Source of the DNA: Buxus sempervirens
Lineage: Eukaryota; Streptophyta; Magnoliopsida; Buxales; Buxaceae
Direction of reading: 5' to 3'
NCBI GenBank assembly: GCA_947561395.2
Contig: OX387183.1
Span: forward strand, 36,506,853 to 36,570,852
DNA: 64,000 nucleotides
Part shown: positions 27,587 to 58,096 of the stretch, one piece after another
Position numbering within the stretch: the first letter of the stretch is position 1
How the letters are laid out: each line of letters starts with the position of its first letter
The notes under the pieces: model-generated
What the model saw: the letters and a program-made list of their open reading frames with translations, nothing else
Database searches by the model: none
What the model was told of the DNA's origin: nothing
Made by a program: the position numbers and the translations under genes

Positions 27587-27685
27587 TGTAGACACCCCAA
27601 ATTGCACTGTCAAAATGATCAATAATCACCAAAAATCATTATCTCCTTGAAGGCCAGCACAGAATTTGAGAAAATGAGTTTTTTC

Positions 27686-27832
27686 CTTGTATCCGGCAAC
27701 TCAGGCCGGATACAAGTGTCCTTCTTTGTATCCGATGGAACATGCTGGATACAAGTAGACCTCAGTGTACCCGGCCTCATAGGCCGGATACATTAAGGTA
27801 CTTGTGTATCCGGCCTGATATGCCGAATACAT
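27686..27832. promoter_or_regulatory. Palindrome array, four units, 39-bp period (5' LTR U3)
   Basis: Units of about 25 bp begin at 27,689, 27,728, 27,767 and 27,806, exactly 39 bp apart. The first is perfect, CTTGTATCCGGC-N7-GCCGGATACAAG. The 14-bp spacers differ. The array lies about 170 bp upstream of the LTR TATA box. The function is unknown; a dimer-protein binding array or cruciform is a fair guess. Confidence 0.93.
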
Positions 27833-27997
27833 TAGTTTTGCTCAAAATTAGGGTTTTCCGAGAGCTTTCACCTTTTACCATCATGTCCTTCATTAAATGA
27901 AGGAAAATCTCGAAAATAGCCTTAGGGTTAAGGTTGGTGGGCTATAGACATTATGTTGTGTCTACCATTCTCATCAACCCTAACCCTAGTTTTTGCC

Positions 27998-28005
27998 TAT
28001 AAATA
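27998..28005 (+). promoter_or_regulatory. LTR TATA box
   Basis: CCTATAAATAGGAG is a textbook plant TATA box, repeated at 48,301 in the 3' LTR; the U3/R border is expected about 30 bp downstream. Confidence 0.8.
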
Positions 28006-29944
28006 GGAGACTCCTCCTTAAGCAAATGGCCATTAACTCTCTTGCAAACAATTCTTGCCAAGAATCTCTGCCAAGAAGAGCTCCGAAAGAAGAGGGAAAC
28101 CGCTGCGGGATCGCTTCCAGAACCCAGGTAAGCCTCAAACTTTTCTTTTATTTTTTGTTTTTATATTTCTAGATCTAGATCTCTTCTTCTACCTTTCTGT
28201 AGAATAAGGCCTTGTTGTGTGTATGAAAACCCTTCCCCGGCTCAAAGTATCTCAAGACTCCCTCTAGCCGTAAAACGTAAAGGCGGGATCTAGGAGAAAC
28301 AAGACTGGGGATTGACCCTAGTACTAGAACCTATTTAGAATAAAGCCTTTTGAATCTTTGAAGCCCGTTTCATATTCAAAGTACCCCAAGATTATCTTGA
28401 AGAACCGTGTTTAACGGGGAGAGAGAGAACTAAAGGAAACGATAATGGAACGGAACCCTAGGTTGTTTTTAGAACCCTATTTTGAATGAATATGAATGCA
28501 TGCTATGTTGTTATATTGTTCTTGAATGATTCTTACACTTACACATACATAGCACATGTTTTGGCAGGATAGGCTCATATTTCAGGTTTATTGCATTTAT
28601 GGTGATAAATCTGAAATAAATGGCTTCAATCAATTCTGGAATGTTTTGAAATGGTTTTTAAAAGATTTGGATTCATCTTGCACGAATTGCACACACTTTG
28701 TCACAGTTTTGAATTGTTTTTCTCCAAAAAAAGGCCTAACTTGACAGCAACTGTACCCCGACTTCGGACACTCATAACTTCATCGTCCGGATGAATTTTG
28801 GAGTGATTCCAGAACCATGGGAAAGGTAAGGCTGTCTAGTTTATGCCTACCAAATTTCATTAATTTCTATCGAGCAGATTTTTGACACCTCTCTGTCGAA
28901 GTTAATTGGTCAGTTCAGGTTTAAATACGGAACTTGTCACTTCGACTGAGCGCCATGTATTCGTTTTAAATCCGATTCAAGTGATTTTTGTTTCTGGGAA
29001 CTCTTTTATGAGTCTATTTTCAAATCCAGTTGGTTTCATAATTTTTTGACTCCATTTGTGTTATTGGTAACAGATTTACTCAGAACTGCTCATCAGTACT
29101 TTTCTGGGTAAATCTGTGATCTTCGAGGCCTGTTCGGGAGACCACCCAAGGCACATCCGAATGAATTTTTGTATGAGGCTAGTTTCGTTAGAAATATGGC
29201 CATACATACTTCATCCACACCAAATTTCATGGATTTTTATGGAGCAGATTTTTCTATGTGATTTTCCAAACTTGCATGCTCACCACTTTTGATTTTCTCC
29301 AGCAGCAACTTCAAAGGAGCATAACTCCTAGGTTTTCAACCGGATCTACTTGAAATTTTGCATGAGTCTTTTATTTACCATAATCTCTCAAATGGATTTG
29401 GTTTGATTCAATTTAAAATTGAATGTGAATGATTTCAAGACAAATGGCATTACTTTTTATCAAATTTCCCGAATTTGATTCAACTTGGTTTTGTGTAACT
29501 TTTGCTTTGATTTCCATCTTTTGGTGATATTCCAGAAGTGATATTGACATAAAAGAGAATCCGGAATCCATTTGGATTTCTCATATGAAAATATCACACA
29601 TTGGCTTAATTCTTTTCCAATGTTTTTTATGATTCTTAGCAAGCTTTCTTACTTTTTTTGCATGAACAAACACTTGGCAACCACCTTGTGTGGATGAGTA
29701 GGGGTGCCTAACACCTTCCCTTGTTCATAATCTAATCCCCTTACCCATCTCTGGATTTGATTTTCAAGTAGGGTTATTTTTACTCTAGAATTTGCCTTTT
29801 AGCTATTTTTGCTTATCTTTAATCTTTTGGTGTCCATTCTCACCCTATAATTCTGAATGGTGGCGACTCTCCCATTTTTTACGCTAAGCCCCGTGTGTTG
29901 ACGGAGGGGAAATCATCCCGGTGATTTTTCCCATGTCTCACAAC

Positions 29945-29963
29945 TGGCGACTCTGCTAGGGAC
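29945..29963 (+). promoter_or_regulatory. Primer-binding site candidate
   Basis: TGGCGACTCTGCTAGGGAC starts two bases after the 5' LTR. It fits the 3' end of a tRNA ending ...CGCCA rather than initiator Met (TGGTATCAGAGC). Ogre-type elements are known for a tRNA-Arg PBS; I cannot confirm the tRNA here. Confidence 0.65.
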
Positions 29964-31667
29964 TTGTGGATTTAAGCCGTTTTGTGTATTTGTTCATGCT
30001 TTTCTCTAATTTTGAATGCTTGCTATTTTGCTTTATTTATTTGTGCATATTGTTATATTTCAAATCATATTAGGATGCTTTGAAATTTGTATGGATCAAA
30101 AGCATGTATGTGTGGCTTGATGTTGGCTAGAAATGTGTTTAGAAGAAGCCTATTTTGAAACATGATTTGGATGTGTTTTGTGATAACATGCTTTGATTTA
30201 AGTTGTTATACCAAAAAAAAAATTTTTTTGAAATCTGGAAATCTAGTGTTAATTTTGGGTATTCAAGCATGTTTCCCATAAATAATGCTTTGTTGGTGCT
30301 TAATGTTTGTTTTATGCCATGCTTTTGATTTGGGGGTATAGGATGACATGATTTGAACATGAAAACCATGAGCATGAAATCTGGAAATTCAGTAGCCATT
30401 GTGAGGGTTTTCAAGCATGTTTTCACCATCAAAACCCTTCTTATACCATGTAAAGTAGTTGCTGAAATTTTAGGCTTCAATTTGGGTATAAACAATGCAA
30501 TTTGAGCATGAAAATGAGGCCACTAAAACCCAGAATTCAGTAGATGTTTTGAGGAGTTTTCAAGCATGTTTTCTATGTTCAAATGCTCCTTGTACAAAAT
30601 GCTAGTTGCTGAATATTTATGCATCAATTTGGGTAAAAAGAATGCACCTTTGCGCATAAAAAAAGAGCATGAAATCTGGAAATTTCAGGGATGTTTTGGG
30701 GTTCAAGCATGTTTCCATGATTTAATTGTTATTTGCACAATATGATAACATGTTTGAATGCTACTTTTGGGCATGTAATGCTTGTGTGCATATTGAGTGG
30801 CTTGTACTACCTTGCTTGCTTATGTTTTGCTTCCAATATGATTGTCATATGCCTTGGCTTGGAATTGTATGCATGGCTACGAAAAAGAGTGGCAAGAGGC
30901 TGGGACGTTGTGAATGTACCTCAATTTTAAATGTACTTGAGCACTTTAAACTATTTGCACAACCTACCCATTACCTATAGGAAGTTGAACCATGAATGTG
31001 GGTAGCTTGGCGCACCGAGGTCGTGACTTCGGAAAGCGAAAGTGAAAACATTCACCTTAGAGCTTGAGTCAATGATGTGATAACAATGGGATCTGTGATT
31101 CAATTCCGGGCATCACTAGACTTGAGTTCTAAGTTGCCAATTAAGCCAAAACCCAAAAACCATACGCTTGAAGGTGGAGAAACACGTTTTCAATTAAAAG
31201 TACACAATTGCGTTTGGGGAATTGGGTGTAAATGGGGGAAGGCCGTTTGCATGTTTTACAGGCCAAGGTATAATATAATACCATATTGAAGGTAATACAA
31301 GGTGGCAAGGTAAAACCATATTCTTTTTTATCATCTTCATGTAAATTAAAAGCCATGGTGTCCATATGCTTGGGATGAAAATTTTCCCAAAAATGTATAT
31401 AGCCTAAGATTGGTGTAACCCATAGGATGAGTTTCCAACTCAATTTAATGGTCATCCTACCCAAAGTCCAAGAAAGAGGCAACCAAGTATACAAAGTCCA
31501 ATAATTGGAATGTAACTTTGGAGGGTACAAATACCCTCATGAATTTGTGAATTTTGCAAACATAAGGTCAAGGCCCAATTTGGGGCAAGTTTCAAAGTCC
31601 AGGTCAAGATGAACATCAAGTGGGAATGAAAATAACAAAAAATGAGTCAAAAAAGGTCATTTCGGCA

Positions 31668-31810
31668 TTAACCGGCAACTCAGGTCGGATAAGAAGAATT
31701 ATATTCGTATCCGGCATAAATTATCAGTTACAAAGACCTATGCGTGTATCCGGCTAATTATACCGGATACAGTAAGCCATAGCCTTATCTGGTATATTAT
31801 GCCGGATACA
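31668..31810. promoter_or_regulatory. Palindrome array, four units, 39-bp period (leader)
   Basis: Units align at 31,668, 31,707, 31,746 and 31,785. The third (GTATCCGGCTAATTATACC, then GGATAC) is the best palindrome; the second is badly eroded, yet the 39-bp register is kept. Unlike the other arrays no TATA box is adjacent on either strand. Confidence 0.85.
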
Positions 31811-32130
31811 TTCAAAAAATGCACAAATTGGTTTTTCAGCCCAAATTTTCAGAATAAAATGCCTAAAACACTGTGGATAATCCTTAGGCACCCCGAAAAG
31901 AACATAAAAATGTTCCAAAAATACAAAATCAAAAAAAATAAAATAAAATATTCTTTCAAGATTTAACCTAATTTTGAAACTCAAAGAGGGAACCAAGGTG
32001 TCATATTTTTTTATACCAATTCAATTCAAACATGTTTCAATCAAGCTTTTGCATTTGAAAACTGAGAAAATTCAGAACAAAGAAACCTTTGGTTGGTTAT
32101 TTTTACCACTCAAAGTCAAAATTTTTAGGA

Positions 32131-32425
32131 CATTTGGAAGCCTCAGAATATTCCAAAAACCTTTGTTTGGTCAACATTTGGAAGCCTCAGAATATTCCAA
32201 AAACCTTTGTTTGGTCACAAGAACCACTCAAAGTCAAAAAATTTTAGGACATTTGGAAGCCTCAGAATATTCCAAAAACCTTTGTTTGGTCACGAGAACC
32301 ACTCAAAGTCAAAAATTTTTAGGACATTTGGAAGCCTCAGAATATTCCAAAAACCTTTCTTTGGTCATGAGAACCAATCAAAACCAAAAATTTGTGGGAC
32401 ACTTGGAAGCCCCAAAATATTCCAA
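32131..32425. repeat. 75-bp tandem repeat upstream of gag
   Basis: CATTTGGAAGCCTCAGAATA starts at 32,131, 32,175, 32,250 and 32,325, with a diverged unit at 32,400: spacings 44, 75, 75 and 75. The unit ends CCACTCAAAGTC plus an AT-rich run. The first unit is shortened by 31 bp. It keeps a reading frame open because 75 is divisible by three; I see no sign that it codes. Confidence 0.93.
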
Positions 32426-32577
32426 GCAAAAAAATAAAAATAAAAATAAATGAAAAAAAAAAACAGACTTGTGTTCACCTAGCCTACTTGTCTACATTTA
32501 TAGGGGTGTGACTCGAGTTAAATGGAGGCTAACATGTTTCTTTGCTTTTTCCTTACCAGGTACACATATTTGTCATC

Positions 32578-34190
32578 ATTGCTCCCGTGGCCAGATCCAA
32601 AGCCCGAGCCCTGAATACTGAAGAGAACCAAGCTCAGGCCACTGTACCCGCTCAAGACTTTGCTCAGCTGCAAGAGCAAGTGGCCGGTTTGGCCAAAATG
32701 CTGGGAGACTTATTGGCGGCTCAGGCCCAACAGGCCCAGGCCCAAAATCAAGCATCGACTTCTCATCAGGCACCACCACCTCAGGCCTACATTCCGCCTC
32801 CCGTTCAACCCATGCCTGAGCCCATTTCTGAACCGGTCCCTGAGCCTATCCTGATCAGGGAAAACATGGGAGAATCTGAAAAAGAAACGGAGAAGAAAAA
32901 AGCTAGGGAAGAGATGGAAAGAAAAATGCTACTCAGGATAGAGAGAATCCAGGAAGAGCTGAAGGAAGTGAAGGAGGAAACAGCTATGGAGGTACCACCT
33001 TCGAAGACATGTGCATATACCCGGACGTATGCCTACCGGCCAAGTTCAAATGCCCGGACTTCGACAAATTTGATGGCACGGGCTGCCCTATGAGCCATTT
33101 AAAACTATACTTCGGGGCCCTATGCCAAATTGGCCGGGAGGACGGCATACTGATCCAACTTTTCCAGAGGAGTTTGACCGGGTCAGCTCTTAGGTGGTTC
33201 GCCACAATGGACCATGGAAGGATCAGGAGGTGGAAGGACTTGGCCGACGCCTTCTTAGACCAATACAAGTTCAACTCTGAGATCGTGCCAGACCGATACG
33301 ACATGATGAGGATGAGTAAGGGGAAAGATGAGTCTGTAAGGCAATACGCCAAGAGATGGAGAGAGGCCGCCTCCCAGGTCAGGCCTCCTATGCTGGAGCC
33401 TGAAATGATCTCAACATTTATGGGTACACTGGGGCAGCCCTTCTACAACCATTTGGTGGGACAGATCACCACCAATTTTGCAGCCCTGGTCCAGATCGAG
33501 GAGGGGGTCAAGTCAGGAAGGCTTATTGACTATTCTACTTTGACTGGGCAGTCTAATTCCGCTGCTTCCCAGGCACAGAAAAAGGGAACTGGGTTCAAGA
33601 AGAACGAAGCCAGGAAAGAAGGGGAGGTAAACCTGGTCCAGGCTCCTCCGGCCAAGAAACCGCTCCATGTGAACATCTCTGCACCGTAGCATGCCCAACA
33701 GGCCCAGCATGCTTATCAGACCCCGCACAATGTCAATTTCTCCCCTTCCGTGCCTGCAAACCAGAGGAGGGCCTTTACTAAGGAGGAGCGGGAGGCCTGG
33801 ATGGCAGCAAGGAGGAACAGAGTCTTTACTCCCCTTCCTGTGTCTCTTTCCCAACTGCTACCTACACTGCTGAAAGGGGAGTATGTGACCCTGAAGGAGC
33901 CTAACCCAAATGCCCCGAAGCGGAGGAATTTTGATCCAGCAATCACTTGCGACTATCACATGGGTGCACCGGGGCACTCTACTGACACTTGCTGGATGCT
34001 GAAGCATGCGGTCCAAGACCTGTTGGACCAAAAGCCCTTGGTTTTTAATAATGCTGCTCCCGCCCCATCGGGGAATGATATTGGGCAGAACCCTCTGCCT
34101 TACCACAATGGGACTGGCCCATCCAATTCTATCACTGCCATATCCACCACGAGAAGGGCCTTTGACCCATCTCAGCTCATAGCTCCATAG
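32578..34190 (+). pseudogene. gag: Tat gag (broken)
   Basis: The first third is Gln/Ala/Pro-rich, then a charged coiled-coil-like part (KEKETEKKKAREEMERKM region near 32,880-32,980). The capsid-like part follows (FDKFDGTG; ALRWF; WKDLADAFLDQYKFN; ESVRQYAKRWREAA; VQIEEGVKSGR) and near the end a zinc-knuckle-like C-x2-H-x5-H-x4-C (CDYHMGAPGHSTDTC, about 33,950). Breaks: the expected start reads ATTGCTCCC at 32,578 instead of an ATG codon, there is a frameshift near 32,985 between the coiled-coil part and the capsid part, and a TAG at 33,687. It would make the structural particle protein. It lies upstream of the protease region. Confidence 0.85.
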
Positions 34191-35064
34191 GGACCACGGT
34201 CAAGGTCCAATTTTTCCCAGAGAAAGAAGAAGAGGAGATCAATATGGTCTCCCAGAAAAACAACCATGCTACTGAGGACATTAGCTCCTCTTTAAACCGG
34301 ATCTCCTCTCTTATGGCCCAAATAAACACTGCAAGGCCTCCATTGGTCTTCAATTACAGTCCACCCATTTGTACACCATCCAAGCCATCAAAGGCTCCAC
34401 TGGTCATCAACCTTGACCCCACCACTGCTTCCATCACTTCTTCTGTCCCCACAAAATCCAAACTCCAGCCCTTGGTTGTAAATGTTCAGCCATCCTGCAA
34501 TATCCCTAAACCGGCCCATACATCCCGATCCAAACTCCAGCCATTGGTGATTAATGTCCCTAAACTAGCCTATTCTGAGGCCGCTGTACCATGGAATTAC
34601 AGCGAGAGAGTCACGGCTACGGTTCCGATGGTCAGGGACCAGAACCAGGAGAAGGTGAACCTCATGACGAGGTCGGGGAGATATGCAGGGAGTGAAGAGA
34701 AAGAAAAGGAGACAGAGGCAGAGAAAAAGAAAAAAGAAACTGAAGAAAAAAGAAAACAAAAGGGAAAAACAAAAATAGGAGAAGACACCCCCCAGGGTGC
34801 AGAAAATGAGGCATCAGACCTCGTAAAAATAATAAAGAAAAGTGAATTCAATCTTGTGGATCAACTGAACAAGGTCCCGGCCCAGATCTCAATACTGGGC
34901 CTTTTGCTGAATTCGGAAAAGCATAGGGATGCATTGTTAAGGGTGCTACAGAGTGCACACGTATCCCAGACCATTGATCCGGACCAACTTGGCAAAATGG
35001 TTGGTCAATCTTGTCACATAATGTGATAAGTTTCTCTAAAGGAGAGATAAGCCCAGGTGGGTGT
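34191..35064 (+). pseudogene. Gag-pol spacer region preceding protease (broken)
   Basis: An open frame from 34,244 to 35,026, in another frame than gag, encodes a Pro/Ser-rich part (repeats of LQPLVxNV), VPWNYSERV, LMTRSGRYA, a highly charged Lys/Glu stretch, then SEFNLVDQLNKVPAQISILG and LLLNSEKHRDALLRVL. These words are conserved before the protease in Tat polyproteins. It ends at two stops (TGA TAA at about 35,024-35,029) before the protease frame. No enzymatic domain is seen in it. Confidence 0.75.
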
Positions 35065-36318
35065 TAGCATGTTGATCCTTTGCACATCACAGTACTTTGT
35101 AAGGGCAGCATGATCGCACGGGTATTAATTGACAATGGGTCGGCGTTAAACGTCTGCCCGTTAATCACTTTTACCAAGCTTGGTCTGGATCAGTCAAAGA
35201 TCAAGCAGAATGGGAAGATAGTGAGGGCTTTTGATAGCTTCAAGACCCACTCCCTAGGGGAGATTGAACTGCCGATCACAATCGGACCGAATATTTTCAA
35301 CATCACATTTGAAGTGATGGATATTCCAGCAGCATTCAATCTGCTCCTAGGAAGGCCGTGGATACACTCGGCTAGGGCAATACCATCCACGCTCCACCAA
35401 AGGGTGAAATACATAAGAGGGCAAAGGGTGATAACAGTCCTAGCTAAGAATTTGGTACCTCCCATTGTGTCACCTGATGTACCCTTGATAAATGTAGACC
35501 TGACTGTTGACAAGATTGTGTTCCATTCGTTTCAATTCGAAACGGTCAATTACATACCTGGGGGGTGTGAGAGAAAAGAAAGGAAAGGAACAACTGCTGA
35601 AGACATGGTGAAGAAAGTGATGGAGAAATACCACTTTCACCCGGGGAAAGGCTTGGGAATCAATTTGCAGGGAATGGTGGAGCCAATCACGGCCAAGAAA
35701 CTGATCCCTAAAGTAGGGTTGGGCTTCAAGCCCAGAGGCTGGAGGAGGATGAAGCATGAAGAAGGAGAAAAACAAAGCAAAGGAAAACTACCTCATTTAA
35801 GGGAAAATTTCCCTAAACCCTCCTATACAATCCAACTGTCTCCTCTCATGGACCAATCCAAGCCTCCATACCACAACATCAATCTTTATCAAAGGCCTTC
35901 TGTTCCAACCTTGCAACCCTATAACCCATCTCCTACAGTTGAAATGGCGGGCGGGCCTGGGCCACAACCAGAGCAGCAGACAAACTTCTCTGAAGATTTT
36001 GGGGCTTTCTTCGCCATGACTGAAGGCGAAAAAACTGGTAGTGACAACGAGCTACCATTCATTGACTGGGCCGCAGTGAAAATCCCAGATGAGGTCATAT
36101 CTGGACTGGGCCCCGTAGCAAAAAAGGGCAGTACCCACCCAGTGATGATGGCATCGGATGCTGGGCTTGAGGATAAGGCTTTCCCTATTTCCCCTGCTCC
36201 CAAAAATTTTGTATTAAACAATTGGGAGAAACTCCCCTTACCTTTGAAGCAGCGTTTGTTCGGCAAACTAACGCGGCTTCCAAAAAAAAACTCCAATAGT
36301 GGATTGCTAATTCCCTGA
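35065..36318 (+). pseudogene. pol: Tat aspartic protease and G-patch-like region
   Basis: The open frame starts HITVLCKGS; the protease motif VLIDNGSALNVCP has its Asp at 35,131, and LLLGRPWIH follows about 75 residues later, both standard for Tat/Ty3 aspartic proteases. The protease cuts the Gag-Pol polyprotein. Around 35,630-35,735 the protein reads FHPGKGLGINLQG and GLGFKPRGW, a glycine-rich G-patch-like segment typical of this lineage before RT. The frame ends at TGA 36,316, in another frame than RT, so a frameshift or lost bases separate the two. Confidence 0.85.
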
Positions 36319-36460
36319 AGGTCCTAATGAGCCTTCGTCTTCAGGGGAATTATATTTAGAAGGCTCACAAAAAACCCAAAAAGATTTTTCTATTTTTTCT
36401 AGAAAGTTTAATTTTTTCAAAAATGTCCAAATCACTTATGAACCATATAATCAAACCGAA

Positions 36461-37660
36461 TTGGACCAGGTTGAATATGACTTCGATCTTGAGCTCGACT
36501 TTGACCTCATGGGGATCGAAGAAAAGACCAAGGTCGAAGAAGAAGACGTTCCAAAAGAAATTGAATACCAATTGGAACGTCATGAAAAGGGGGTCCAACC
36601 TAATATTGAGGAGACCATATCCATAAATCTTGGGACCGAAAAGGACCCAAAAATAGTGAAAATCGGGGCATGCTTGTCCGATGTACAGCAAAATGAAATG
36701 TCACGGTTTTTGGCAGACTACAAGGACGTGTTCGCTTGGTCGTATCGGGACATGCCGGGGTTGGACACTGACATGGTGGTGCACAAATTGCCAATTTTGC
36801 CAGGGGTTAAGCCAATTAAGCAGAAGCTGAGAAGATTGAAACATGAATGGACTCTGAAGGTCAAGGACGAAGTGGTCAAGCAATTCCAAGCAGGATTTCT
36901 GGCAGTCTCCACATACCCCGAGTGGCTCGCAAACATAGTGCCAGTACCGAAGAAGGACGGGAAAGTTAGAATGTGCGTGGACTACAGAGATTTGAACAAG
37001 GCAAGCCCAAAGGATGATTTTCCACTTCCACACATCGACATTCTGGTCTATAATACTGCGGTGCATAGCCTATTTTCGTTCATGGATGGTTTCTCTGGAT
37101 ACAATCAGATCAAGATGGCTAAGGAAGATCAAGAGAAAATAACGTTCATCACACCTTGGGGCACATTCCACTATACAGTCATGCCATTTAGGCTTAAGAA
37201 TGCTGGGGCAACATACCAGCGGACCATGATCGCACTATTCCATGACATGATCCATAAGGAGATGGAAGTCTACGTGGATGATATGATAGCCAAATCATGC
37301 AAAGAAGAGGACCACTTGATCAATCTGAAGAAGGTGTTTGATTGACTCAGAAAGTACAGTCTACGGCTTAACCCGGCTAAATGCGTCTTTGGGGCTACAT
37401 CAGGGAAGTTGCTGGGGTTTATTGTGAGCCGAAGAGGAATCGAAATTGACCCGGCTAAAGCCAAGGCCATAATTGAGATGCGATCACCCAGAACAGAGAA
37501 GGAGGTCAGGGGCTTTCTTGGAAGAATTCAATATATAAGCCGGTTCATAGCACAACTCACGGCTATTTGTGAATCGATTTTCAAACTTTTGAGGAAGAAT
37601 AACCCGACGGTCTGGAATGAGGATTGCCAAGAAGTCTTTGATACAATAAAGGTATTTGCT
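36461..37660 (+). pseudogene. pol: Tat reverse transcriptase (in-frame stop)
   Basis: The domain shows MSRFLADYKDVFAWSYRDMPG, the fingers motif MCVDYRDLNKASPKDDFPLP, FMDGFSGYNQI with the first catalytic Asp, AGATYQRTM, and YVDDMIAKS (YVDD at 37,271-37,282) with the catalytic Asp pair. It copies element RNA to cDNA. After KKVFD a TGA at 37,343 interrupts the frame; it continues LRKYSLRLNPAKCVFG and GKLLGFIVSRRGIEIDP. A frameshift near 37,655 shifts the rest. The catalytic residues are intact but the ORF is not. Confidence 0.93.
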
Positions 37661-38132
37661 GAACCCACCTGTGCTAGTGCTACCAACTCCAGGAAGACCG
37701 CTGATCCTATACTTGTCAATGTTGGAAACATCGATGGGATGTGTCTTGGGGCAGCATGATGAGACGGGTAGAAAGGAAAGGGCAATTTACTATCTGAGTA
37801 AAAAGTTCACAGAATATGAAGCCAAGTACTCACCATTGGAAAATACTTATTGTGCTCTAGTGTGGGCAACTCAAAGGCTAAGGCATTACTTCCTTAGTCA
37901 CTCTACATTATTGATATCCCGGATGGACCCCTTGAAGTATTTATTTGAGAAACCGGCACTGACTGGCAGAACAGCGAAGTGGCAACTACTACTATCCGAG
38001 TTTGACCTCACATACATCACTCAAAAGGCAATCAAGGGTCAAGTCATTGCTGATCACCTGGCTGCACATCCTTTGCCAGAATACCAACCGTTGAAGACCA
38101 ACTTTCCTGATGAGGCAATTATGTTTACTTAA
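37656..38132 (+). pseudogene. pol: Ty3-type RNase H domain
   Basis: The shifted frame continues LILYLSMLETSMGCVLGQ, AIYYLSKKFTEYEAKYSPLE, CALVWATQRLRHYF and IADHLAAHPLP, the ordered motifs of Ty3/gypsy RNase H, which degrades RNA in the RNA:DNA hybrid. The usual first catalytic Asp (DTxxG...) reads Glu here (LET), a possible loss. It ends at TAA 38,130 and goes on in the same frame into the second RNase H. Confidence 0.85.
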
Positions 38133-38560
38133 GAAGAGGAAAGTGAAAGTTCTTGGCAGATGTTCTTCGACGGGGCCGCCAACATGAATGGAAATGGAAT
38201 AGGGGCAGTTTTGGTCAAGCCAGATGGGTCCCACATCCAAATCGCAGTGAAGCTAAGATTCCAGTGCACCAATAATATTGCAGAGTATGAAGCGTGTATA
38301 ATTGGATTGCAAGCCGCCATAGATCATGAAGTGGAGGAACTTGACGTATACGGAGATTCGAGTCTTATCATCTTCCAAACAACTGGTGAATGAAAAACCA
38401 AGGATCACAAATTGATCCCCTATCACTAGTATTTGGAAGAAATAAGCACAAATTTTACTCAAATTTCCTTTAACTATATGCCAAGGGCCAAGAATCAATT
38501 CGCGGATGCTCTAACAACATTGGCTTCCATGGTTAGCATGCCAGAAGGGGTAGACATCAA
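38133..38560 (+). pseudogene. pol: Archaeal-type RNase H (aRNH) domain of Tat lineage
   Basis: MFFDGAANMNGNGIGAVLV, FQCTNNIAEYEACIIGLQAA, LDVYGDSSLII and NQFADALTTLASM are the four motifs with catalytic Asp, Glu, Asp, Asp of the second RNase H found in Tat elements. A TGA at 38,391 and a TAG at 38,427 lie inside it. The presence of two RNase H domains is the strongest single marker of the lineage. Confidence 0.9.
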
Positions 38561-39814: not shown

Positions 39815-40855
39815 CAGAAATGGATGGGTCAGATTTTCCTGAGCCAATTAACTCTGATGCAGTAAAAAGGTATTTTCCTTGAGTGAACATTACTAGGAAA
39901 TGATCTGAGGCCATTTTTCTTTATTTCCCTCAAATTTTAGTCCCTAGTCTATCCAAATTGAGCTGGTTCGTTTCTTTGATAAACCTAAACCAGACTTGCA
40001 GTCTTATATTGGGGCAAAACAAATTGGGGCAAGGCCAATTGGGGCAAAATAAGAAAAAAAAGAAACAAAGAAAAATGGCAAATGAAAGCCAAGTGTGAAA
40101 AATTGCAAAGAATACAACTTGGGGGAAAAAGGGTTAAATTCATCATGACTGTAAGTCCGGTCGACCTATTTCCACATTTGAAAATTTTTGAGCCTTTAAT
40201 ACCTCTTCTTTCATAAACCGAGTCTAGCCTTTGTTTCGTCTTATTTCTAAGTCCTCGGTGATCTTAGTATGTTCATTCTAATTTTAGAGTGAAATTGGTG
40301 ATGACGGAATGCAAAAGCCGGCCCTAGTGAAAACCGTAACTGGCGCTAGGGGCAATATTGGCAAGAAGGAAAGAAGAAGAAAAAATAAAAATAAAAATTA
40401 AAGGTTGAGTTGATCATGTGATCCGAGCTTGAAGAGAAATCAACACAAGTATTGAAACTAAGTAGATTGGGTAATACAGTCAATTCTGGAAGAAGAGGAA
40501 TTTGGGGATGACTCTAAAGGTCCTAAGATGGACGGTTTTGATCCCTCATTATTCCTTGGACTACCCTCTTCATTATTTAACCTGATTTTAATTCATGTAA
40601 TTATAGGTGATTAAGTGCATGGACCAAATTTCAAAAAATAAAAAAATAAAAAATAAATAAAAAAGAAAAACTATACTTTGGCCAGTGATGAGAAATCAAA
40701 TACTTTTCATAAAACCTTTGTTTTTACAAGCATTTGAGCATTCTGAGGCCAATAATATAAAAATTTTATTTTTGAATTAAATACTTTGGCTTTCCACTAT
40801 TGGAGTTCAATTTCGTACAAAGGTATGAAAGAAAAAAAATGTGCAGGAAATAAAG
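39815..40855. other. Spacer between integrase and antisense gene 2
   Basis: It holds three copies of ATTGGGGCAA (40,007-40,050), a purine run GGGGGAAAAAGGG at 40,121-40,133 that resembles an internal polypurine tract, and AT-rich sequence. It also contains the 3' side of antisense gene 2. No coding frame is seen. Confidence 0.55.
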
Positions 40856-42597
40856 CTAGTCTCTGTCTCCTAGCCGCTCCTCAAGCTCCCAAATCCGAGC
40901 TGCCTGAGCTGCAATAACTCCAGAAGCCCCCTCTGCAACAGGATCACTCAAGAATGAAATGACCTCATCTGAAAGAGTCTGCCTAATCCTCATGCTCCTA
41001 AAGCTGGCTAAAGCATCCTGGTGCTTCTGCCACAGTGCTCGGACTTCAAGAGAGCGAGCCTGCCTATGCTTCTCAAGTTGTTTTTCCATAGCGAGACGGC
41101 GGGATACCTGCTCTGCAAGTTGCCTCTCCATGTCAAAGCCCCGTATCCTAAGCTCCTGGGCCTCTCGTACCCATATTTGCTGAAGGCGCCTGTGAGAAGC
41201 TCTCTCAGACTCCAGAATGTCCTCATAAGTAGGAGCCAAGACTGCAGGAGGATCTTCAGGTACTGAAGCCTGACTCTGTATCTGCTCCCTAATCCAGAAG
41301 AGATAGTCCTTCACATGAGACTCTGAGAAGACGGGGTCCCGCATAAAGCGAATATAAGACCACTCCCTCATCAACCAGGCATTCAGCTTCATGGTAGCTG
41401 GAGAAAGTGGCCCAAGATGATCTTCATACCCACTTGGGATTATAATCCCCTAGGTCGCTCTGAACTGACGAAGGACCCTCAAAGGAAGGTAAAGCACTGC
41501 ATGTCTCAGGCCAGCCAGAACCAAAAAGTTGCGGTCTCGAAAGCTGATCACAGTCTCTGCATTGGGCTGATAGGTACCAGGCCACCTCACTTGATCATCC
41601 TGGAGTGTAGCCAAGAAAGTAAACCAACTCTGTTTACCCCCTGGAATGTTAGGACATCCCCGGTTGCTCATCAAGATAGGAACCTTCAAGCTTGGGAAGA
41701 AGTGCCGATTGATCTCCTCAATCTGGCTCAGGTGGTCAAGTAGCCAAAGCTGCAAAAGAGGAGGGATATTTCAATGTATTGCAAAAGAAAAAAAAAGCAA
41801 AAAGCAAAAAGCAAAAAAAGAAAAAATAGTAAAAAAGGAAAAAAATGCAAAAAAGAAAATTTTTTACCTGCAGGATGGGGGCGCATGATAGGAAGCGCTT
41901 CGAGTTCCTGTAATAGCAGTCAGTCAAAGCCTGGAACATCTCTGCCAAAATCATAGGGGCCAGTCTCTCCTGCTCCCTAACCTGACATACAACTGAGATT
42001 AGGGCCAAGTCCACCTCATCATCATCCCGTGGGAAAAGTAGCTGGTTGACCACTATTAGGGTCAAGACATTGAACCTGGCTTCTTTATTCTCCCCTCTCA
42101 AAAGCTTCTCAGTCAGAAATGACTTGGACAAGGTCAAAAGGGTGTCAGAATCCCCCAAATCCTTCTTCCCTATGCCCAGGAAAGTAGAAGCCTCCTTCTT
42201 GTAGCTGGGCCTGAAGGGAGGGTTCACTACCTTCTCATCAAATCTCAATCCTAGAATGGTTTCCACCTCTTCAATGGTCGGGGTCATCTCATGGTTTCCA
42301 AAACGGAAAAGGTTGAGGTCAGGTACCCAATGAATGGCCAATCATGGCCTCAATAATCTCCCATTTGAAGGGAACCTTCTGGATAAGCAGAATGTGGCCT
42401 AGATGGTTGGAATCCCATCTCCTCTCCTCATCAAGGGTCATAGAATTAACCCACCTATTAAAAAAAGAGCCCACAGGATTGTACCTAGTAAGATTAGGTG
42501 GTTTTGATCTAAAAGGCTGTTTTGCAGGGGAGGCTGCGTGGACAGACAATGGCAAGGCAGAAGATGATCCGGATTCCATTGGATATGATGGGAGCAA
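40856..42597 (-). pseudogene. Antisense gene 2: DUF7745/mobile-domain-like protein with coiled coil
   Basis: Two exons, 42597-41868 and 41749-40856, are joined by a short AT-rich intron (GT at 41,867, AG at 41,750). Exon 1 is one base longer than a whole number of codons; the frame shifts near 42,340 (after EIIEAMI), and removing that shift makes 540 codons with matching phases. Motifs: FRFGNHEMTPTIEEVETILG, PFRPSYKKEASTFLG, then GCPNIPGGKQSWFTFLATL, RDRNFLVLAGLRHAVLYLP and LRVLRQF. These fit the plant DUF7745 / transposase_28-like group linked to Retand antisense ORFs. The C-terminal 100 residues (SERASHRRLQQIW, EKQLEKHRQAR) are a coiled coil. A TAG at 41,448 interrupts exon 2. It has its own TATA box 92 bp upstream of ATG. 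The function is unknown. Confidence 0.75.
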
Positions 42598-42688
42598 GCT
42601 AGAATATATGGGGGGATGAAAAAGGCGAAAAAGGGGTTTTCTAAACTCAAAAACTCATAAAAAAATACGCAAATCCCGAGGCTGGTTG

Positions 42689-42696
42689 TATTTATA
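42689..42696 (-). promoter_or_regulatory. TATA box of antisense gene 2
   Basis: On the minus strand the sequence reads AAACTATAAATACAACC, a strong plant TATA box, 92 bp upstream of the ATG at 42,597 and 13 bp downstream of a palindrome array. Confidence 0.7.
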
Positions 42697-42708
42697 GTTT
42701 TTTTTAGC

Positions 42709-42852
42709 GTAACCGGCATATCAGATCGAATACAAAGAGTTTTATTCATAACCGATGAAGTATGCCGGATACAAAAGGTTCTAAACGTATCCGGTATAAT
42801 ATACCGGATACAAAGAGAACTCAATGTATCCGGTCTGATATACCAGATACAA
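42709..42852. promoter_or_regulatory. Palindrome array, four units, 39-bp period (antisense gene 2)
   Basis: Units start at 42,709, 42,748, 42,787 and 42,826. The third, GTATCCGGTATAATATACC followed by GGATAC, is almost perfect with arms CCGGT/ACCGG instead of the CCGGC/GCCGG of the LTR unit. It lies directly upstream of the TATA box of antisense gene 2. Confidence 0.92.
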
Positions 42853-43044
42853 AGAAAAATTGCAAAAAAAAGACATGGAGAAAAATCCGAAACTTTTACC
42901 TGTTTTACCTGTGTACAAGCCATAATTGCATGAAATTGAAAAGAAAATAAGTGCAAGACAAGAGAGAATGAATAAAATGTTTCTTTCATATATAAATGCA
43001 AGTTTCTTTGTACAAAGAAGGAGAAATACAAGGAAAGTCCTAAT

Positions 43045-45826
43045 CTACTGCTCCTGTGCAGGATCATCCCCGCGTCCTCTGCCACGTCCTCCTCTGCGAC
43101 CTCTCCCTCTCCCTCGGGATGGCCGACGACTGAAGACATGGGAAATAATACACGCGGCAGCATGGCGAGGAAGCCGACCCACCACTTGCTGGATCTGATA
43201 CTCCAAGCAATACTCTGAAAGGTCTGGAAGCGAATTAGGAGCAGAATCTGGGGAAGAGACCTCGGGCTCAGCACGTGCAGGCTCGATTGGACCCGCAGAT
43301 CCAGAAGGCCCAGCAGCAGCAGAAGAAGGGCCAGGAGCAGAAGTATATGGGTCAACAGAAGAAAAATCAGAAATTGGGATATTAAGATGAACCAAAGAAG
43401 GAAAATTAAAGAAAACATACCAAGGATATCTACAGCGGGAACTGGAGGATCCGGCTCAACTGGGTCAGCAACAGGGACGTCCTCCGGCTCAGGAACCGTC
43501 ACTGAAGATGAAGGAGTAGCCGGGGCATCCGCAGAAGCAGCTGGGGCATCAGTAGGATCAGCAGCTGGGGCATCCCCAGGATCAGCAACCGGGGCATCCT
43601 CGGGATCAACAGCCCAAGCCGAAGATGGACCAGGTACCGGGAAATCAGGCTCCTGGTCTGGGACTGGACCCTGCAAAAGTCAAAACAGGCATATCAGAAT
43701 AGCAGAAACATGGAAATGGAAAAGATGAAATTACAAGAAAACCAGATACCTGTCTAGCCTGGAGCTCAGCAACCAGAGCCTCTAGCTCTCTGATCCTAGC
43801 ATCCCGCTGGGCCACAGCTGCGTCATGCTCTGCGATCATATCCTCGATCGCGGCCCGCTGGCTCTGGAACCGATCTCGAATGATATTCAGCTCGTGTACC
43901 TGCCAATAAACACAGAATTAGGGTCAGAAATGCAGAATCGAAGAGAAATAGACGGAAAATGAAGATCACCAGACTCACCGTATCGTCATGGATCCGGATA
44001 AAGATCCCGCCAATCTCAGTCACCCCAGCACGAGTGGGGCAATCCATCAAGCACCCAATGGATACTCTCTGGATCCACTCGTCGTAATCCCCAGCTACTG
44101 TGAGCCCCTCTGCAGCCTGGAAATGATCAAACTGATCAACTTCAAAGCCCGGCAAGAGCATGTCAGGACCCACAGGAGGAGGGGGAACAGGGATGCGAAG
44201 TGTGCCTATGTGCTGGTAGTACAGGCACTCTCCCAAATACATCACCCTACCAAGCCTCCCAAGGAAGCATTGGTAGGGCTGACGCCGGAGATCTCTATCA
44301 AAGGCGTCCTGTACTGCCATCTCACGGGCCACTCCCACATCCACGTCATCAAAGCGGGCCAGGATGAGCTGCAAAGAAGAGAAATGGTCAGATACAGTCA
44401 AGATGCAGGAAAAGAAATAAAAGGAAAAAGGAGAAAGGGTTTACATCGGATCGGCGGGCACGGTCCAAATGCACCCGAGCAGTGCGAGGCTAACTCCTAT
44501 CATCATCTCGGACCTGGGCCGACCAACGTAAAGCAACAGGGAAATCCGCGACCTCAGGTACCGGGGATGGGCGGAAGAAAGTCATATAGGTGTACATAAA
44601 CACCTGGCAAAAGAAAAATCAGTTAAAGGTAAAGAGGATAAAGCCTAAGGAATTAAACCAAACAGATGAATTCAATACCTGTAGAATCTGCCAGAAGAAC
44701 CAGCAGCTAAATCCATCACCTCTCGGGGATGCCAGGCCTCGAACCACTCGGCACAACCCGGCCAGGATGGTCCCATAAATGAGTCGACCCCATGCTAGCT
44801 AGCGGGTCTGATGAAAATCCCGCAGAGCATCTAAGAAAAGAAGACTGACACTGGTCGTATCCTCCGGGAAGAAGCAGCTCCCGAGCATCAGCAGGAAAAC
44901 GTGCCGGAAGATAGGAACAAAGGCTGCATCCTCCACAGCAACGGTCGCATGTCTCCCCTCATAATGACGAGCCAGGCTCTCCCGCAACCAACTAATGGAG
45001 AGACAACCACTCCGTCCATCCCAAGCAGCAGGTGGCAGGTCCTGATATCCCAGAAGGAGGCCGATGTCCGCCGCAGAATGCCGATCCAAGACGATGGTCC
45101 GCCCCGTCAAAGGAATACCAGTAATCATCACAAAATCAGAGGGGCGGATCCCCAGCTCCACGTCAGATAGATAGAAGGACTGCGTCTCCGGAAAATATCT
45201 CTCCATCATGGCAAAAATGAGTGGGCGATCGGCTCGGAACGAGGGGATGCTGAGGAAATGATCCAAGTGGCACCTCCCAAACTCACGCCTGAGTGCTGGA
45301 GAAAGTGACTGAGCCAACTCGCTGAATCTCCCCCAACTGCCTCGCAAATGGGAAGAATGATAGGGAAGCGGCACATCGGCCCTGATACACATAGAGGGGT
45401 GGCTATCCAAGCCACTGAGAAGCTCTGTATCATGAACAGATGCTCTCAGCTCCGCAGAGACCCCTGACAAAGCTACAGCAGCACCATCCTGAGCCGCACC
45501 CCTGGCTCTGCCTTGGCCTCGGCCTCTACCACGGCCTCCCTCACCCTCAAGGGCCTGATCATGAACTTTGCCTCGGTCTCTGCCTCGACCCCGAGCAAGA
45601 GCAACAACGGGCTAAAATTCAAAGGAAAAGTGTGAAGATTGATATGGGAGGAGAATAGAAGGAGGAAAAGAAGAACTTGAAAGTCTACCTCAGCAGAGCT
45701 CTCCCTAGAGACATCTAGCGGCTCCGACAGGGTGGCGCTGGAACTCGCCTCTATCCGAGCCCGCGAAGTGGAGGGCTGATCAGCAGGGTCAGCCTCCTCT
45801 CTAACTCGGGAACGACCCCTAGCCAT
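43045..45826 (-). pseudogene. Antisense gene 1: plant-mobile-domain-like protein, seven coding exons
   Basis: The exons are 45826-45689, 45611-44679, 44603-44445, 44368-43979, 43899-43750, 43670-43421 and 43352-43045; all phases agree and give 775 codons. ATG follows directly on a splice acceptor (TGTGTAG|ATG). Order: MARGRSRVREE; an Arg-Gly-rich part (about 49-85); a region of about 300 residues with FYLSDVELGIRPSDFVMITG, IPLTGRTIV and RHVFLLMLGSCFFPED, the layout of the plant mobile domain (PMD/MAIN-like); a coiled coil in exon 5 (about 541-590); DAPAADP-type acidic repeats; and an RG-rich C-terminus (RGRGRGRRGG). Breaks: TAG at 44,797, TAG within exon 3, and the last splice acceptor reads TG. 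RG boxes suggest RNA binding (inference). Such domains are often carried by plant transposons. Confidence 0.72.
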
Positions 45827-47300
45827 CTACACAGGGAAGTGTTTTATCAGAAATTTTACCTTGCTTTTTAGTTCATCAGGGATCTTGACAGGTTTTTTAA
45901 CATTATCATGAATTGTGGGAATTTTATCTCATTTGGGAAAGGATGGATATTTCTGTTTTCTAATTCTAAAACATGTCTTCCTAACCCCAAAAGATTCCTA
46001 CAAAACTTAATATTTCCAAATGTTTTGTGATTGCAGGGTATGAAAAATTGAGGGCCAAAGGATCAAAAGCAGGCAGAATTATTAATATCCAAATTTACAA
46101 GACATGTTGGGAAGTCAATTGAAAAAAAATCTTTTCACGGCAAAGGAGGGTGGTAAAATTGAAAGTAAGCAATCCACCAGCAATAATTCATCAGAAGTTT
46201 TCACTTCCGTCAATTAAGAAACAAAGAAGAAATGCGGGAGGTCACTGCCAACAGGAGATTCAAGTCAAGAAAAATGCAGCATGGTATGGGCATTAGAAAA
46301 ATTGCAGCATGGCATCAGCAGCATGCCATCAACCGGGCAATCTTAAAGAATTACGGGAAATTGGATCAAGGTTGGGATCAATAAATACTACCGGCAGGCA
46401 ATTTGAAGCTAGATCACAGGAATTGGCAGAATCAAGTTGGAAGTCAAAGCAAATTAGAACAGCATAAAAGTAATCCATTCGGTCAGAATTCCTCATCAGC
46501 AGCAATTCCAATCAATGCAAGTAAGAGTCATAGCATCACAAAAATTGATACATTGCAAGTCAGAATCATGGTTTATCCAAAACAATCAAAGCAATTGCAA
46601 GAATCGGTGAACAAAGAATTCATCAATACATTATGCTCAAGCTTCGCAAAAGTTCAAGAACAAAAATTGCTCGAAATGAGGAACCAGCAGGACAATCTTA
46701 GAAAATTGCAGCAAGTTCAAGACTTATCCTAGCATATAAATCCGAAAAGTCTAGCATGAGCATACAAATCAGAAAATCAGCAGCTTGGGAACCAAATCAG
46801 CAACCTAGCATGCAATTAAGAAAAATAGAATTCCAGGTCATGCAAATGATTACAAAATCCTGTTGAGACAAAAATTTCAAATGAAGTAAGAACACTTACT
46901 TGGGATTTGCCGAAGGAAATGAGATGTGAGATGCTTACTGCCGCAATGGGAGACAGAAAATTGGGGAGCAGGAGCAAAGGTGGAAGCTTAGGTGATCTTG
47001 GCACCAAGGCGTCTGCCAGTGGAGTTGCTGCTGCCGGAGAATCGCCGGAACTTGGACGAAATTATCAAGCAAGGTCGATGGGAAACAAAGGTTTAAGAAA
47101 AATCCGAAAATGCCAAGCTAGGGCTCGGTCGCAGCAATGAGGATGTGTCGCCGGCGTCAACAGGTGTCGCCGGAGCTTAATGACTCGTCGAAGATCGCCG
47201 AAGAGAAAGGGGAGCCGTCGGGGACGAAGGAGAAGAGATGTGTGTCCGGTCTGAGTAATCGGAGAAGGAAGAAAAGAATGGGGAAAGTCGCGGTCGCGCG
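45827..47300 (-). other. 5' leader exon and leader intron of antisense gene 1
   Basis: On the minus strand a CT-rich leader exon (about 47,280-46,900) ends at CCCAA|GTAAGTG. The next acceptor is the AG right before the ATG at 45,826, making a leader intron of 1,073 bp. The intron has no coding frame. Long 5' leader introns ending at the ATG are common in plant genes. The transcription start is inferred from the TATA box. Confidence 0.55.
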
Positions 47301-47304
47301 CGAC

Positions 47305-47312
47305 TTATAAAA
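47305..47312 (-). promoter_or_regulatory. TATA-like box of antisense gene 1
   Basis: The minus strand reads GGTTTTATAAGTCG, followed by the GC palindrome GTCGCGCGCGAC (47,293-47,304) and the CT-rich leader. It sits 7 bp downstream of a palindrome array. Confidence 0.5.
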
Positions 47313-47318
47313 CCATGA

Positions 47319-47384
47319 GTATCCGGTGAATCAGGCCGGATACAAACAAGGCCATTCGTATCCGGTATGCTATACCGGATACAA
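47319..47384. promoter_or_regulatory. Palindrome array, two units, 39-bp period (antisense gene 1)
   Basis: Units start at 47,319 (GTATCCGGTGAATCAGGCC then GGATAC) and 47,358 (GTATCCGGTATGCTATACC then GGATAC). Spacing is again exactly 39 bp, and the array lies immediately upstream of the antisense TATA-like box. Confidence 0.92.
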
Positions 47385-47880
47385 AAGAAAAAAAACAAAA
47401 AAAAGAGAAAAAAAAAGGAAAAAAGAGAAAAAGAAATGAAAAAAGGAAAAAAGGGAAAAAAAGGAGAAAAGAAAAAAAAAAGAGCAAAAATGCGCTGCAA
47501 AGTTAGCTATTTTCTCACAAAATCCTATTGTCGCCTTAAAATCCACCTCACAGCCACAAGAGCTCAATGGAATTTAGGACAACTTTGGGAAATGTGTTGG
47601 TCAAAAAGGAAGATATACACTCAATTTTTAACTTGGTTTGATAAAAAAATCAGTTTTCAAAAATCCTATTTTTGGGCTTAAAATCCACTTCATAGCCACG
47701 AGAGCTCAGTGGAGTTTAAGAATTCTTGGAGAAATGCCCCCCTTAAAGTTAGGACTTTTTGGCAAATCTTCACCTAAAAATTATTTTTACAAAATTGAAT
47801 TGAACCAAGCAAATCAAGGTTAAGGGAGTGCAATTTGGGCTTGTATAATCTTTGCAGCTCATTGCTTCGCAACTCTCGCA
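47385..47880. other. Purine-rich spacer before the 3' LTR
   Basis: A poly-purine run of about 100 bp of A and G (47,386-47,486) is followed by two imperfect copies, about 150 bp apart, of AAATCC...CACAGCCACRAGAGCTCARTGGA (near 47,540 and 47,680). No gene is seen. Confidence 0.55.
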
Positions 47881-47891
47881 AAGAGGGGCAG
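47881..47891 (+). promoter_or_regulatory. Polypurine tract
   Basis: AAAGAGGGGCAG lies two to three bases before the 3' LTR start TGTAGACACC, the expected place for plus-strand priming. Confidence 0.8.
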
Positions 47892-47893
47892 TT

Positions 47894-50243
47894 GTAGACA
47901 CCCCAAATTGCACTGTCAAAATGATCAATAATCACCAAAAATCATTATCTCCTTGAAGGCCAGCACAGAATTTGAGAAAATGAGTTTTTTCCTTGTATCC
48001 GGCAACTCAGGCCAGATACAAGTGTCCTTCTTTGTATCCGATGGAACATGTCGGATACAAGTAGACCTCAGTGTATCCGACCTCATAGGCCGGATACATT
48101 AAGGTACTTGTGTATTCGGCCTGATATGCCGGATACATTAGTTTTGCTCAAAATTAGGGTTTTCCAAGAGCTTTCACCTTTTACCATCATGTCCATTAAA
48201 TGAAGGGAAATCTCGGAAATAGCCTTAGGGTTAAGGTTGGTGGGCTATAGACATTATGTTGTGTCTACCATTCTCACCAACCCTAACCCTAGCTTCTACC
48301 TATAAATAGGAGGCTCCTCCTTAAGCAAACGGCCATTAACTCTCTTGCAAACAGTTCTTGCCAAGAATCTCTGCCAAGAAGAGCTCCGAGAGAAGAGGGA
48401 AACCGCTGCGGGATCGCTTCCAGAACCCAAGTAAGCCTCAAACTTTTCTTTTATTTTTTGTTTTTACATTTCTAGATCTAGATCTCTTCTTCTACCTTTC
48501 TGTAGAATAAGGCCTTGTTGTGTGTATGAAAACCCTTCCCCGGCTCAAAGTATCTCAAGACTCCCCCTAGCCGTAAAATGTGAAGGCGGGATCTAGGAGA
48601 AACAAGACTGGGGATTGACCCTAGTACTAGAACCTATTTAGAATAAAGCCTTTTGAATCTTTGAAGCCCGTTTCATATTCAAAGTACCCCAAGATTATCT
48701 TGAAGAACCGTGTTTAACGGGGAGAGAGAACTAAGGGAAACGATAATGGAACAGAACCCTAGGTTGTTTTTAGAACCCTATTTTGAATGAATATGAATGC
48801 ATGCTATGTTGTTATATTGTTCTTGAATGATTCTTACACTTACACATACATAGCACATGTTTTGGCGAGATAGGCTCATATTTCAGGTTTTTGCATTTAT
48901 GGTGATAAATCTGAAATAAATGGCCTCAATCAATTCTGGAATGTTTTGAAATGGTTTTTAAAAGATTTGGATTCATCTTGCACGAATTGCACACACTTTG
49001 TCACAGTTTTGAATTGTTTTTCTCCAAAAAAAGGCCTAACTTGACAGCAACTGTACCCCGACTTCGGACACTCATAACTTCATCGTCCGGATGAATTTTG
49101 GAGTGATTCCAGAACCATGGGAAAGGTGAGGCTGTCTAGTTTATGGCTACCAAATTTCATTAATTTATATCGGGCAAATTGTTGACACCTCTCTGTCAAA
49201 GTTGATTGGTCAGTTCAGGTTTAAATACGGAACTTGTCACTTCGACTGAGCACCATGTGTTCGTTTTAAATCCAATTCAAGTGATTTTTGTTTCTGGGAA
49301 CTCCTTTATGAGTCTATTTTCAAATCCAGTTGGTTTCATAATTTTTTTGACTCCATTTGTGTTATTGGTAACAGATTTACTCATAACTGCTCATCAGTAC
49401 TTTTCTGGGTAAATCTGTGATCTTCGGGGCCTGTTCGGGAGACCACCCAAGGCACATCCGAATGAATTTTTGTATGAGGCTAGTTTCGTTAGAAAGATGG
49501 CCATACATACTTCATCCACGCCAAATTTCATGGATTTTTATGGAGCAGATTTTTCTAGGTGATTTTCCAAACTTGCATGCTCACCACTTTTGATTTTCTC
49601 CAGCAGCAACTTCAAAGGAGCATAACTCCTAGGTTTTCAACCGGATCTACTTGAAATTTTGCATGAGTCTTTTATTTACCATAATCTCTCAAATGGATTT
49701 GGTTTGATTCAATTTAAAATTGAATGTGAATGATTTCAAGACAAATGGCATTACTTTTTACCAAATTTCCCGGATTTGATTCAACTTGGTTTTGTGTAAC
49801 TTTTGCTTTGATTTCCATCTTTTGGTGATATTCCAGAAGTGATATTGACATAAAAGAAAATCCGGAATCCATTTGGATTTCTCATATGAAAATATCACAC
49901 ATTGACTTAATTCTTTTCCAATGTTTTTTATGATTCTTAGCAAGCTTTCTTACTTTTTTTGCATGAACAAACACTTGGCAACCACCTTGTGTGGATGAAT
50001 AGGGGTGCCTAACACCTTCCCCCGTTCATAATCTAATCCCCTTACCCATCTCTGGATTTGATTTTCAAGTAGGGTTATTTTTACTCTAGAATTTGCCTTT
50101 TAGCTATTTTTGCTTATCTTTAATCTTTTGGTGTCCTTTCTCACCCTATAATTCTGAATGGTGGCGACTCTCCCATTTTTTACGTTGAGCCCCGTGTGTT
50201 GACGGAGGGGAAATCATCCCGGTGATTTTTCCCATGTCTCACA
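47894..50243 (+). repeat. 3' LTR of the Tat element
   Basis: It runs from TGTAGACACCCCAAATTGC to CCCATGTCTCACA, 2,350 bp. Its palindrome units start at 47,995, 48,034, 48,073 and 48,112 (39-bp period) and the TATA box is at 48,301. A 4-bp deletion relative to the 5' LTR lies near 48,195. GTGTT follows at 50,244. Confidence 0.95.
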
Positions 50244-58085: not shown

Positions 58086-58096
58086 GAAAAATTTTT

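Follow-up and report, generated by a model that had tools for sequence, protein, structure and literature searches.

The 64,000-nucleotide window of Buxus sempervirens DNA analysed here (contig OX387183.1, positions 36,506,853 to 36,570,852) contains a complete Tat/Ogre-like long terminal repeat (LTR) retrotransposon, in which palindromes of 25 bp recur in short arrays with a period of exactly 39 bp. The element lies on the plus strand between a 5' LTR (27587..29942) and a 3' LTR (47893..50243), has LTRs of the form TGTAGACACC...TCTCACA and is flanked by the target-site duplication (TSD) GTGTT. Aligned from 27592 and 47898, the two LTRs show 55 mismatches in 2345 columns. Between them, separate open reading frame (ORF) pieces reveal the domains Retrotrans_gag, RVT_1, RT_RNaseH, RVT_3/RNase_H (a second RNase H), Integrase_H2C2 and rve in this order, and a long region holding antisense ORF pieces follows the integrase. 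The element belongs to the Tat clade and is probably Ogre-like; only its plant mobile domain (PMD) and its long LTRs suggest Ogre rather than Retand.

The original prediction listed 18 palindrome starts in five clusters, and all 18, together with every listed 39-bp interval, were verified. The clusters at 27,689 and 47,995 turned out to be one array present in both LTRs with identical spacers, so that the element carries four independent arrays and not five. Array LTR5 (27689..27830, four dyads) lies roughly 100 bp into the LTR and precedes the TATA box; LTR3 (47995..48136) is its copy in the 3' LTR. I31 (31668..31809) comprises four dyads, three of them with eroded arms, in the leader between the 5' LTR and gag. 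I42 (42709..42850, four dyads) is situated between both antisense gene regions, and I47 (47319..47382, two dyads) directly precedes the purine-rich tract and the 3' LTR. Beyond the interval covered by the prediction, we found eight extra dyads with the same period, starting at 56871, 56910 and 56949, at 58097, 58136 and 58175, and at 58279 and 58318. These lie in a solo LTR (55813..58918, minus strand, TSD CCCTG) that represents a second Tat-like family, diverged from the first and here called S, and form the arrays S56 (56871..56973, three dyads, the third a variant), S58a (58097..58199, three dyads, adjoining a TATA box) and S58b (58279..58342, two dyads, farther upstream in the LTR). In total, the window holds 26 units in seven non-redundant arrays, four in the Tat element and three in the S LTR, with 15 non-redundant intervals of exactly 39 bp. 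Among related copies, the spacing was checked in the S family, which keeps 39 bp inside each of its three sub-arrays and departs from it between the two at 58.1-58.3 kb, where the gap from 58175 to 58279 is 104 bp.

Each dyad consists of two inverted half-sites, GTATCCGRY, whose 7-bp cores are 11 bp apart. The core GTATCCG was derived from the 44 half-sites of 22 non-redundant units, with A at position 3 in 44/44 and with T at position 2 and C at position 5 in 42/44 each. A symmetric position weight matrix (PWM) trained on these 22 units (LTR3 was omitted as a duplicate) scored 25 of the 26 units at 22 or higher and the unit at 56949 at a weaker 17.9. Ten window-sized Markov-1 random sequences gave five hits of at least 7, the best reaching 14.2; this null is the only independent part of the comparison, as 22 of the 26 units formed the training set and the remaining four are their 3' LTR copies. 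All 30 occurrences of the 7-mers GTATCCG/CGGATAC in the 64 kb fall inside the 26 units, six of them in the 3' LTR copy. A candidate eroded dyad at 47242-47266, 77 bp before 47319, scored 11.4, which is within the chance range, hinting that I47 formerly had more units.

The half-site differs between the families, being GTATCCGGY in the Tat element and GTATCCGAC in S. At position 8, 23 of 28 Tat-element half-sites have G and 14 of 16 S half-sites have A (Fisher p 1.4e-5, although the two half-sites of a unit, and those of units that arose by duplication, do not count as independent). Counted per unit, G/G occurs in 9/14 units of the Tat element and A/A in 6/8 of the S family, and position 9 in S is C throughout (16/16). 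Judged from these patterns, both halves of the dyad appear as if they track one shifting specificity.

Outside the arrays, the two LTR families show no significant alignment. Comparison of the S LTR (3.1 kb) with the first LTR (2.35 kb) via blastn revealed significant similarity at the arrays only: the five best matches all lie there (E 7.9e-8, 4.1e-5, 0.006, 0.006 and 0.021), and a sixth, outside the arrays, has an E of 0.021 and is no better than chance. At 61515-64000 (minus strand) lies the 3' part of a third Tat-like LTR, whose 3' end shares 70% identity with the solo LTR across 362 columns. This third LTR apparently cuts a fragment at about 60950-61500 (plus strand) that by eye resembles a Harbinger-type transposase, based on GALDGTYIPAMV, a motif of that type.

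When the three 4-unit arrays LTR5, I31 and I42 are compared in register, the arms are 78% identical, the centres 61% and the spacers 42%. The dyads are therefore far better conserved than the spacers, as the original prediction had supposed, and this, together with the same design in a second LTR family, fits an array of protein sites under selection.

Several arrays lie close to promoter elements. In the 5' LTR, the TATA box at 27998..28003 (plus strand, CCTATAAATAGG) is 167 bp past the last LTR5 dyad, and its counterpart in the 3' LTR, at 48301, is 164 bp past LTR3. A TATA box at 42691..42696 (minus strand, ACTATAAATAC) is 12 bp from I42, and that of the S LTR at 58080..58085 (minus strand, TCTATAAAAAGG) is 11 bp from S58a. 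Two of the seven arrays, S58a and I42, thus sit 11-12 bp upstream of a correctly oriented TATA box, compared with 0.26 expected occurrences of TATAAAW in the right orientation within 30 bp of the seven arrays (p 0.03, post hoc).

The TATA box near I42 faces an antisense region encoding DUF7745/PMD. An ORF piece at 42322..42579 (minus strand), with no Pfam match of its own, has its first ATG at 42579, past this TATA box. It is followed at 41453..42341 (minus strand) by two pieces that match DUF7745, one with E 1.1e-16 and the other with E 9.8e-4, which falls below the curated cut-off; the former piece also matches the plant mobile domain just under the cut-off (E 1.6e-8). The reading frame changes between the 42579 piece and the next DUF7745/PMD piece; presumably, the two form one gene. 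Gene region 1 contains an antisense piece at 44802..45611 (minus strand) with a plant mobile domain (PF10536, E 9.7e-9, 35.3 bits vs. a cut-off of 34.9). A search of the PDB with this PMD piece as the query returned no match up to E 1, and a single-sequence structure model of it (mean pLDDT 41) was unusable and set aside. Two other antisense pieces, at 43645-43917 and 40856-41449 (minus strand), look heptad-like and coiled-coil-like by eye, which would suit a dimer; the former also has weak coiled-coil Pfam matches below the cut-off.

Based on the sequence features described, we consider it likely that the arrays are cis-regulatory operators which act bound as DNA, whichever protein binds them. 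In this reading, a dimeric protein would bind each 25-bp dyad as double-stranded DNA, and two to four dyads at 39 bp would offer a cooperative platform. Copies are found in the LTR promoter region, in the leader, before the 3' LTR and beside the promoter-like TATA box that faces the antisense DUF7745/PMD region, so that one factor could govern sense and antisense transcription together, and the arrays would couple the LTR promoter with an antisense accessory promoter. Protein binding, dimerisation and co-regulation are what we infer from this arrangement. The palindromic form would explain an independence of orientation: the flank shared by LTR5 and I42 has the same direction in both, although the gene region that I42 faces is on the minus strand.

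If the arrays are operators, an element-encoded factor is a reasonable candidate for the binder, held with less than even confidence; it could, for example, be the PMD/DUF7745 protein of the antisense strand, with a VANC-like role in self-recognition or anti-silencing. A host factor would have a somewhat weaker claim, and a binder of another kind a weaker one still, though neither is negligible. That each family has its own half-site speaks for a factor encoded by the element and co-evolving with it, as in the VANC system in the accessible text of PMC5735166. The full circuit, in which the antisense DUF7745/PMD protein would bind as a dimer at the arrays of the element's own LTR and antisense promoter for self-recognition, auto-regulation or anti-silencing, with a half-site diverging between families, is in our view rather unlikely.

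A number of observations weigh against the operator reading. The evidence comes from a single 64-kb window, and the visible part of the third LTR piece (61515-64000) contains no dyads. The TATA adjacency test is weak besides being post hoc. S56 lies off a simple promoter position, about 1.1 kb downstream of the TATA box of its own LTR; I31 has no TATAAA or TATATA within 150 bp; a TATAAAA at 47306 beside I47 faces the array, opposite to what the model requires; and some 1.5 kb separate I47 from the ATG (45826) of antisense region 1. The antisense ORFs are broken or interrupted, and a Pfam scan of 12 antisense pieces gave no DNA-binding domain of a known kind. Between the 5' and 3' LTR, 7/100 dyad bases changed and 0/56 spacer bases, indicating no selection on this copy since insertion. 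Post-insertion selection was therefore rejected, with the dyads decaying in this copy; selection, if there is any at all, acts between transposition cycles and not on this dormant copy. Finally, the G>A difference at position 8 would also be expected from methylation decay, even if the neighbouring position 9 has stayed C in all 16 half-sites of S.

The alternative that survives best overlaps with the operator reading. Here the LTRs would have captured tandem sites of a plant transcription factor, for instance a MYB-related one, which would serve as a host enhancer without any involvement of an element protein; we regard this as a minority possibility. MYB-related proteins recognise GGATA/TATCC, a core which the dyads resemble, and stress-responsive LTRs such as those of Tnt1 and Tto1 carry host-factor sites. 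The position of LTR5, S58a and S58b upstream of TATA boxes would also suit such an enhancer. However, a 9-bp half-site with a dyad and a 39-bp period is far longer than a MYB-related site, and arrays also occur in the leader and between the antisense gene regions. Moreover, a fixed host factor would not lead one to expect that two families in the same genome have different half-sites.

A second alternative, which we judge improbable, is a palindromic unit of 39 bp without function, which slippage during replication or template switching would have multiplied, its period being merely inherited. The original prediction set a protein array under selection against slippage, and a part of the latter has to be conceded within the operator reading as well. 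Within arrays, spacer cores have 42% identity (11 pairs); the value between arrays is 33% (94 pairs), and random 9-mers give 26%. The arrays thus look grown by duplication of the 39-bp unit, and TRF reports I42 and S58a as 39-bp tandem repeats. Judging by these identities, the period probably began as a tandem duplication. The 4-unit blocks moreover share a register: identity of centres and spacers among LTR5, I31 and I42 is 48% in register vs. 36% off-register, a value attained by 9/576 unit orders. LTR5 and I42 have a common downstream (3') flank (reached in 0/300 shuffles, the best of 30 flank comparisons); two other comparisons stood at 2/300 and 10/300 and the remaining 27 at more than 15/300. 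The in-register similarity and the shared flank point to copying of a 4-unit block, which probably took place within the element lineage. Tandem repeats are also common in the 3' regions of Tat elements according to the accessible text of PMC11963269 and PMC10794571. Against passive multiplication, the arms stay about 76% identical between arrays, where spacer cores reach only the 33% given above, and the array has been kept in two LTR families that otherwise show no significant alignment. The LTR pair has 4 gap openings per 55 mismatches; at that indel rate, the three 4-unit arrays, with approximately 113 inferred substitutions, should have undergone about 8 length changes in their variable columns, while none was seen. 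This figure is a rough estimate and biased, since the arrays had been recognised by their period.

An array of RNA or cruciform-DNA hairpins, with stems of 9-11 bp acting in the transcript in packaging, stability or small RNA production, has a similarly low or slightly lower probability. Five of seven folded units beat nearly all shuffles (z -3.4 to -6.7), one was weaker (z -2.15) and one did not fold; units I42.3, I47.2 and S58a.3 are perfectly paired over 11 bp, and I31 lies in the leader. Any palindrome folds, however, and the fold of I31.2 is lost. LTR5, S58a and S58b, being upstream of a TATA box, are outside the expected 5' end of the sense transcript. When whole right arms were permuted among 21 units (56949 left out), covariation of the arms was not significant (175/231 pairs vs. 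a mean of 170.7, p 0.18), with pairs 8-9 coming nearest (p 0.07) and pairs 10-11 at p 0.94, in a test whose power is limited by near-invariant outer pairs. Arms without significant covariation speak for a dimeric protein on double-stranded DNA rather than for a hairpin. Apparent compensatory changes (GGC/GCC, GGT/ACC, GAC/GTC) were discarded as evidence, as family-specific half-sites and C>T/G>A change explain them.

The decay of this copy suggests methylation. Transitions make up 48 of the 55 LTR differences, and outside the dyads changes affected CG at 10/86, CHG at 10/114 and CHH at 27/669 sites, with the highest per-site rates at CG and CHG; the copy is probably methylated. That CCGG-rich arrays are merely magnets for host DNA methylation and small interfering RNAs, kept by recent spread only, is very improbable: although CG and CHG in dyads changed in 6/35 columns and all 30 deviations at half-site positions 5-8 are C>T or G>A, as for methylated DNA, the same contexts outside the dyads changed at 20/200, which is not clearly different, and the dyad symmetry and the family-specific half-site would be left unexplained.

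Other tandem repeats within the element are found in the leader and before gag, at 30351-30714 (147-bp period) and 32174-32425 (75-bp period). Outside it, minisatellite-like repeats occur at 5483-5741 (51 bp, five copies) and 53000-53203 (about 42 bp).

The host element shares with Ogre/Retand elements of the Tat clade a gag-pol with a second RNase H, a long region between pol and the 3' LTR, and antisense ORFs; its LTRs measure 2.35 kb vs. 315-1194 bp given for Retand (accessible parts of PMC6317226, PMC11963269 and PMC7264820). An antisense ORF with a plant mobile domain, an Ogre trait, is present here, and this domain is reported in 57% of Ogre elements in the part of PMC6317226 available. 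The tandem repeats of Tat elements are described as variable and mostly located between pol and the 3' LTR (accessible text of PMC11963269). In the same portions, "palindrome" occurs only within a cited title in PMC11963269 and is absent from PMC6317226. Target-site palindromes, treated in the accessible text of PMC6911290, are a separate matter. The claim that no such element has been described in Tat retrotransposons agrees with the literature searched, largely outside subscription journals, in which none surfaced among the papers listed, judged by title and opening of the abstract, or in the text read. Tandem repeats and antisense genes in Tat elements, as well as motif arrays in VANDALs, were already known; new is a fixed-period palindromic array common to the LTR, the leader and the antisense promoter and kept across two LTR families. 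In viral_contigs, the dyad pattern matched 28 stretches, and in none of them did a second unit at 39 bp score at least 13/18; the two-unit pattern matched no stretch there, whereas its 27 matches in genome_contigs all came from records titled as bacteria or bacterial metagenome-assembled genomes. Peptide patterns used to look for relatives matched 6 stretches for the RT piece, 61 for the DUF7745 piece and 12 for the integrase piece, and none was confirmed.

A regulatory role is suspected for the antisense ORFs of related elements, and gene23 of maize Grande has its own promoter, with the function of antisense accessory ORFs stated as unknown in the accessible text of PMC7264820 and PMC11963269. 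Our literature search for DUF7745 gave no paper. For the plant mobile domain of MAIN/MAIL1, the part of PMC7156037 at hand names no DNA target beyond an enriched promoter motif. A repeated, family-specific dyad beside an antisense gene region thus offers a direct target for studying PMD/DUF7745 function. Should the PMD/DUF7745 protein bind the arrays, they would be the first DNA target of a domesticated, widespread domain, and if any element-encoded protein does so, VANC-like self-recognition would extend to LTR retrotransposons, which form the bulk of many plant genomes.

VANC-family proteins carry the domain DUF1985, and no match to this protein family was found among the 28 ORF pieces scanned, 27 of them from the Tat element. 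As in VANC systems, a family-specific motif is repeated in element DNA judged non-coding; this judgement comes from I42 and I47, which lie within ORF pieces without a Pfam match above the cut-off. In contrast, the Arabidopsis VANDAL/VANC system concerns a DNA transposon with a 9-bp motif, YAGTATTAY, which is not palindromic by inspection and for which binding has been demonstrated (accessible text of PMC5735166 and PMC10398659), while here 25-bp dyads at a fixed 39 bp recur in an LTR retrotransposon as putative binding sites. The arrays likewise invite comparison with copia elements. In the U3 of Tnt1 and Tto1, repeated enhancer boxes serve host factors and are confined to the LTR. The Buxus arrays resemble them as tandem, putatively protein-binding boxes in an LTR promoter and differ from them in recurring beside internal antisense genes as well.

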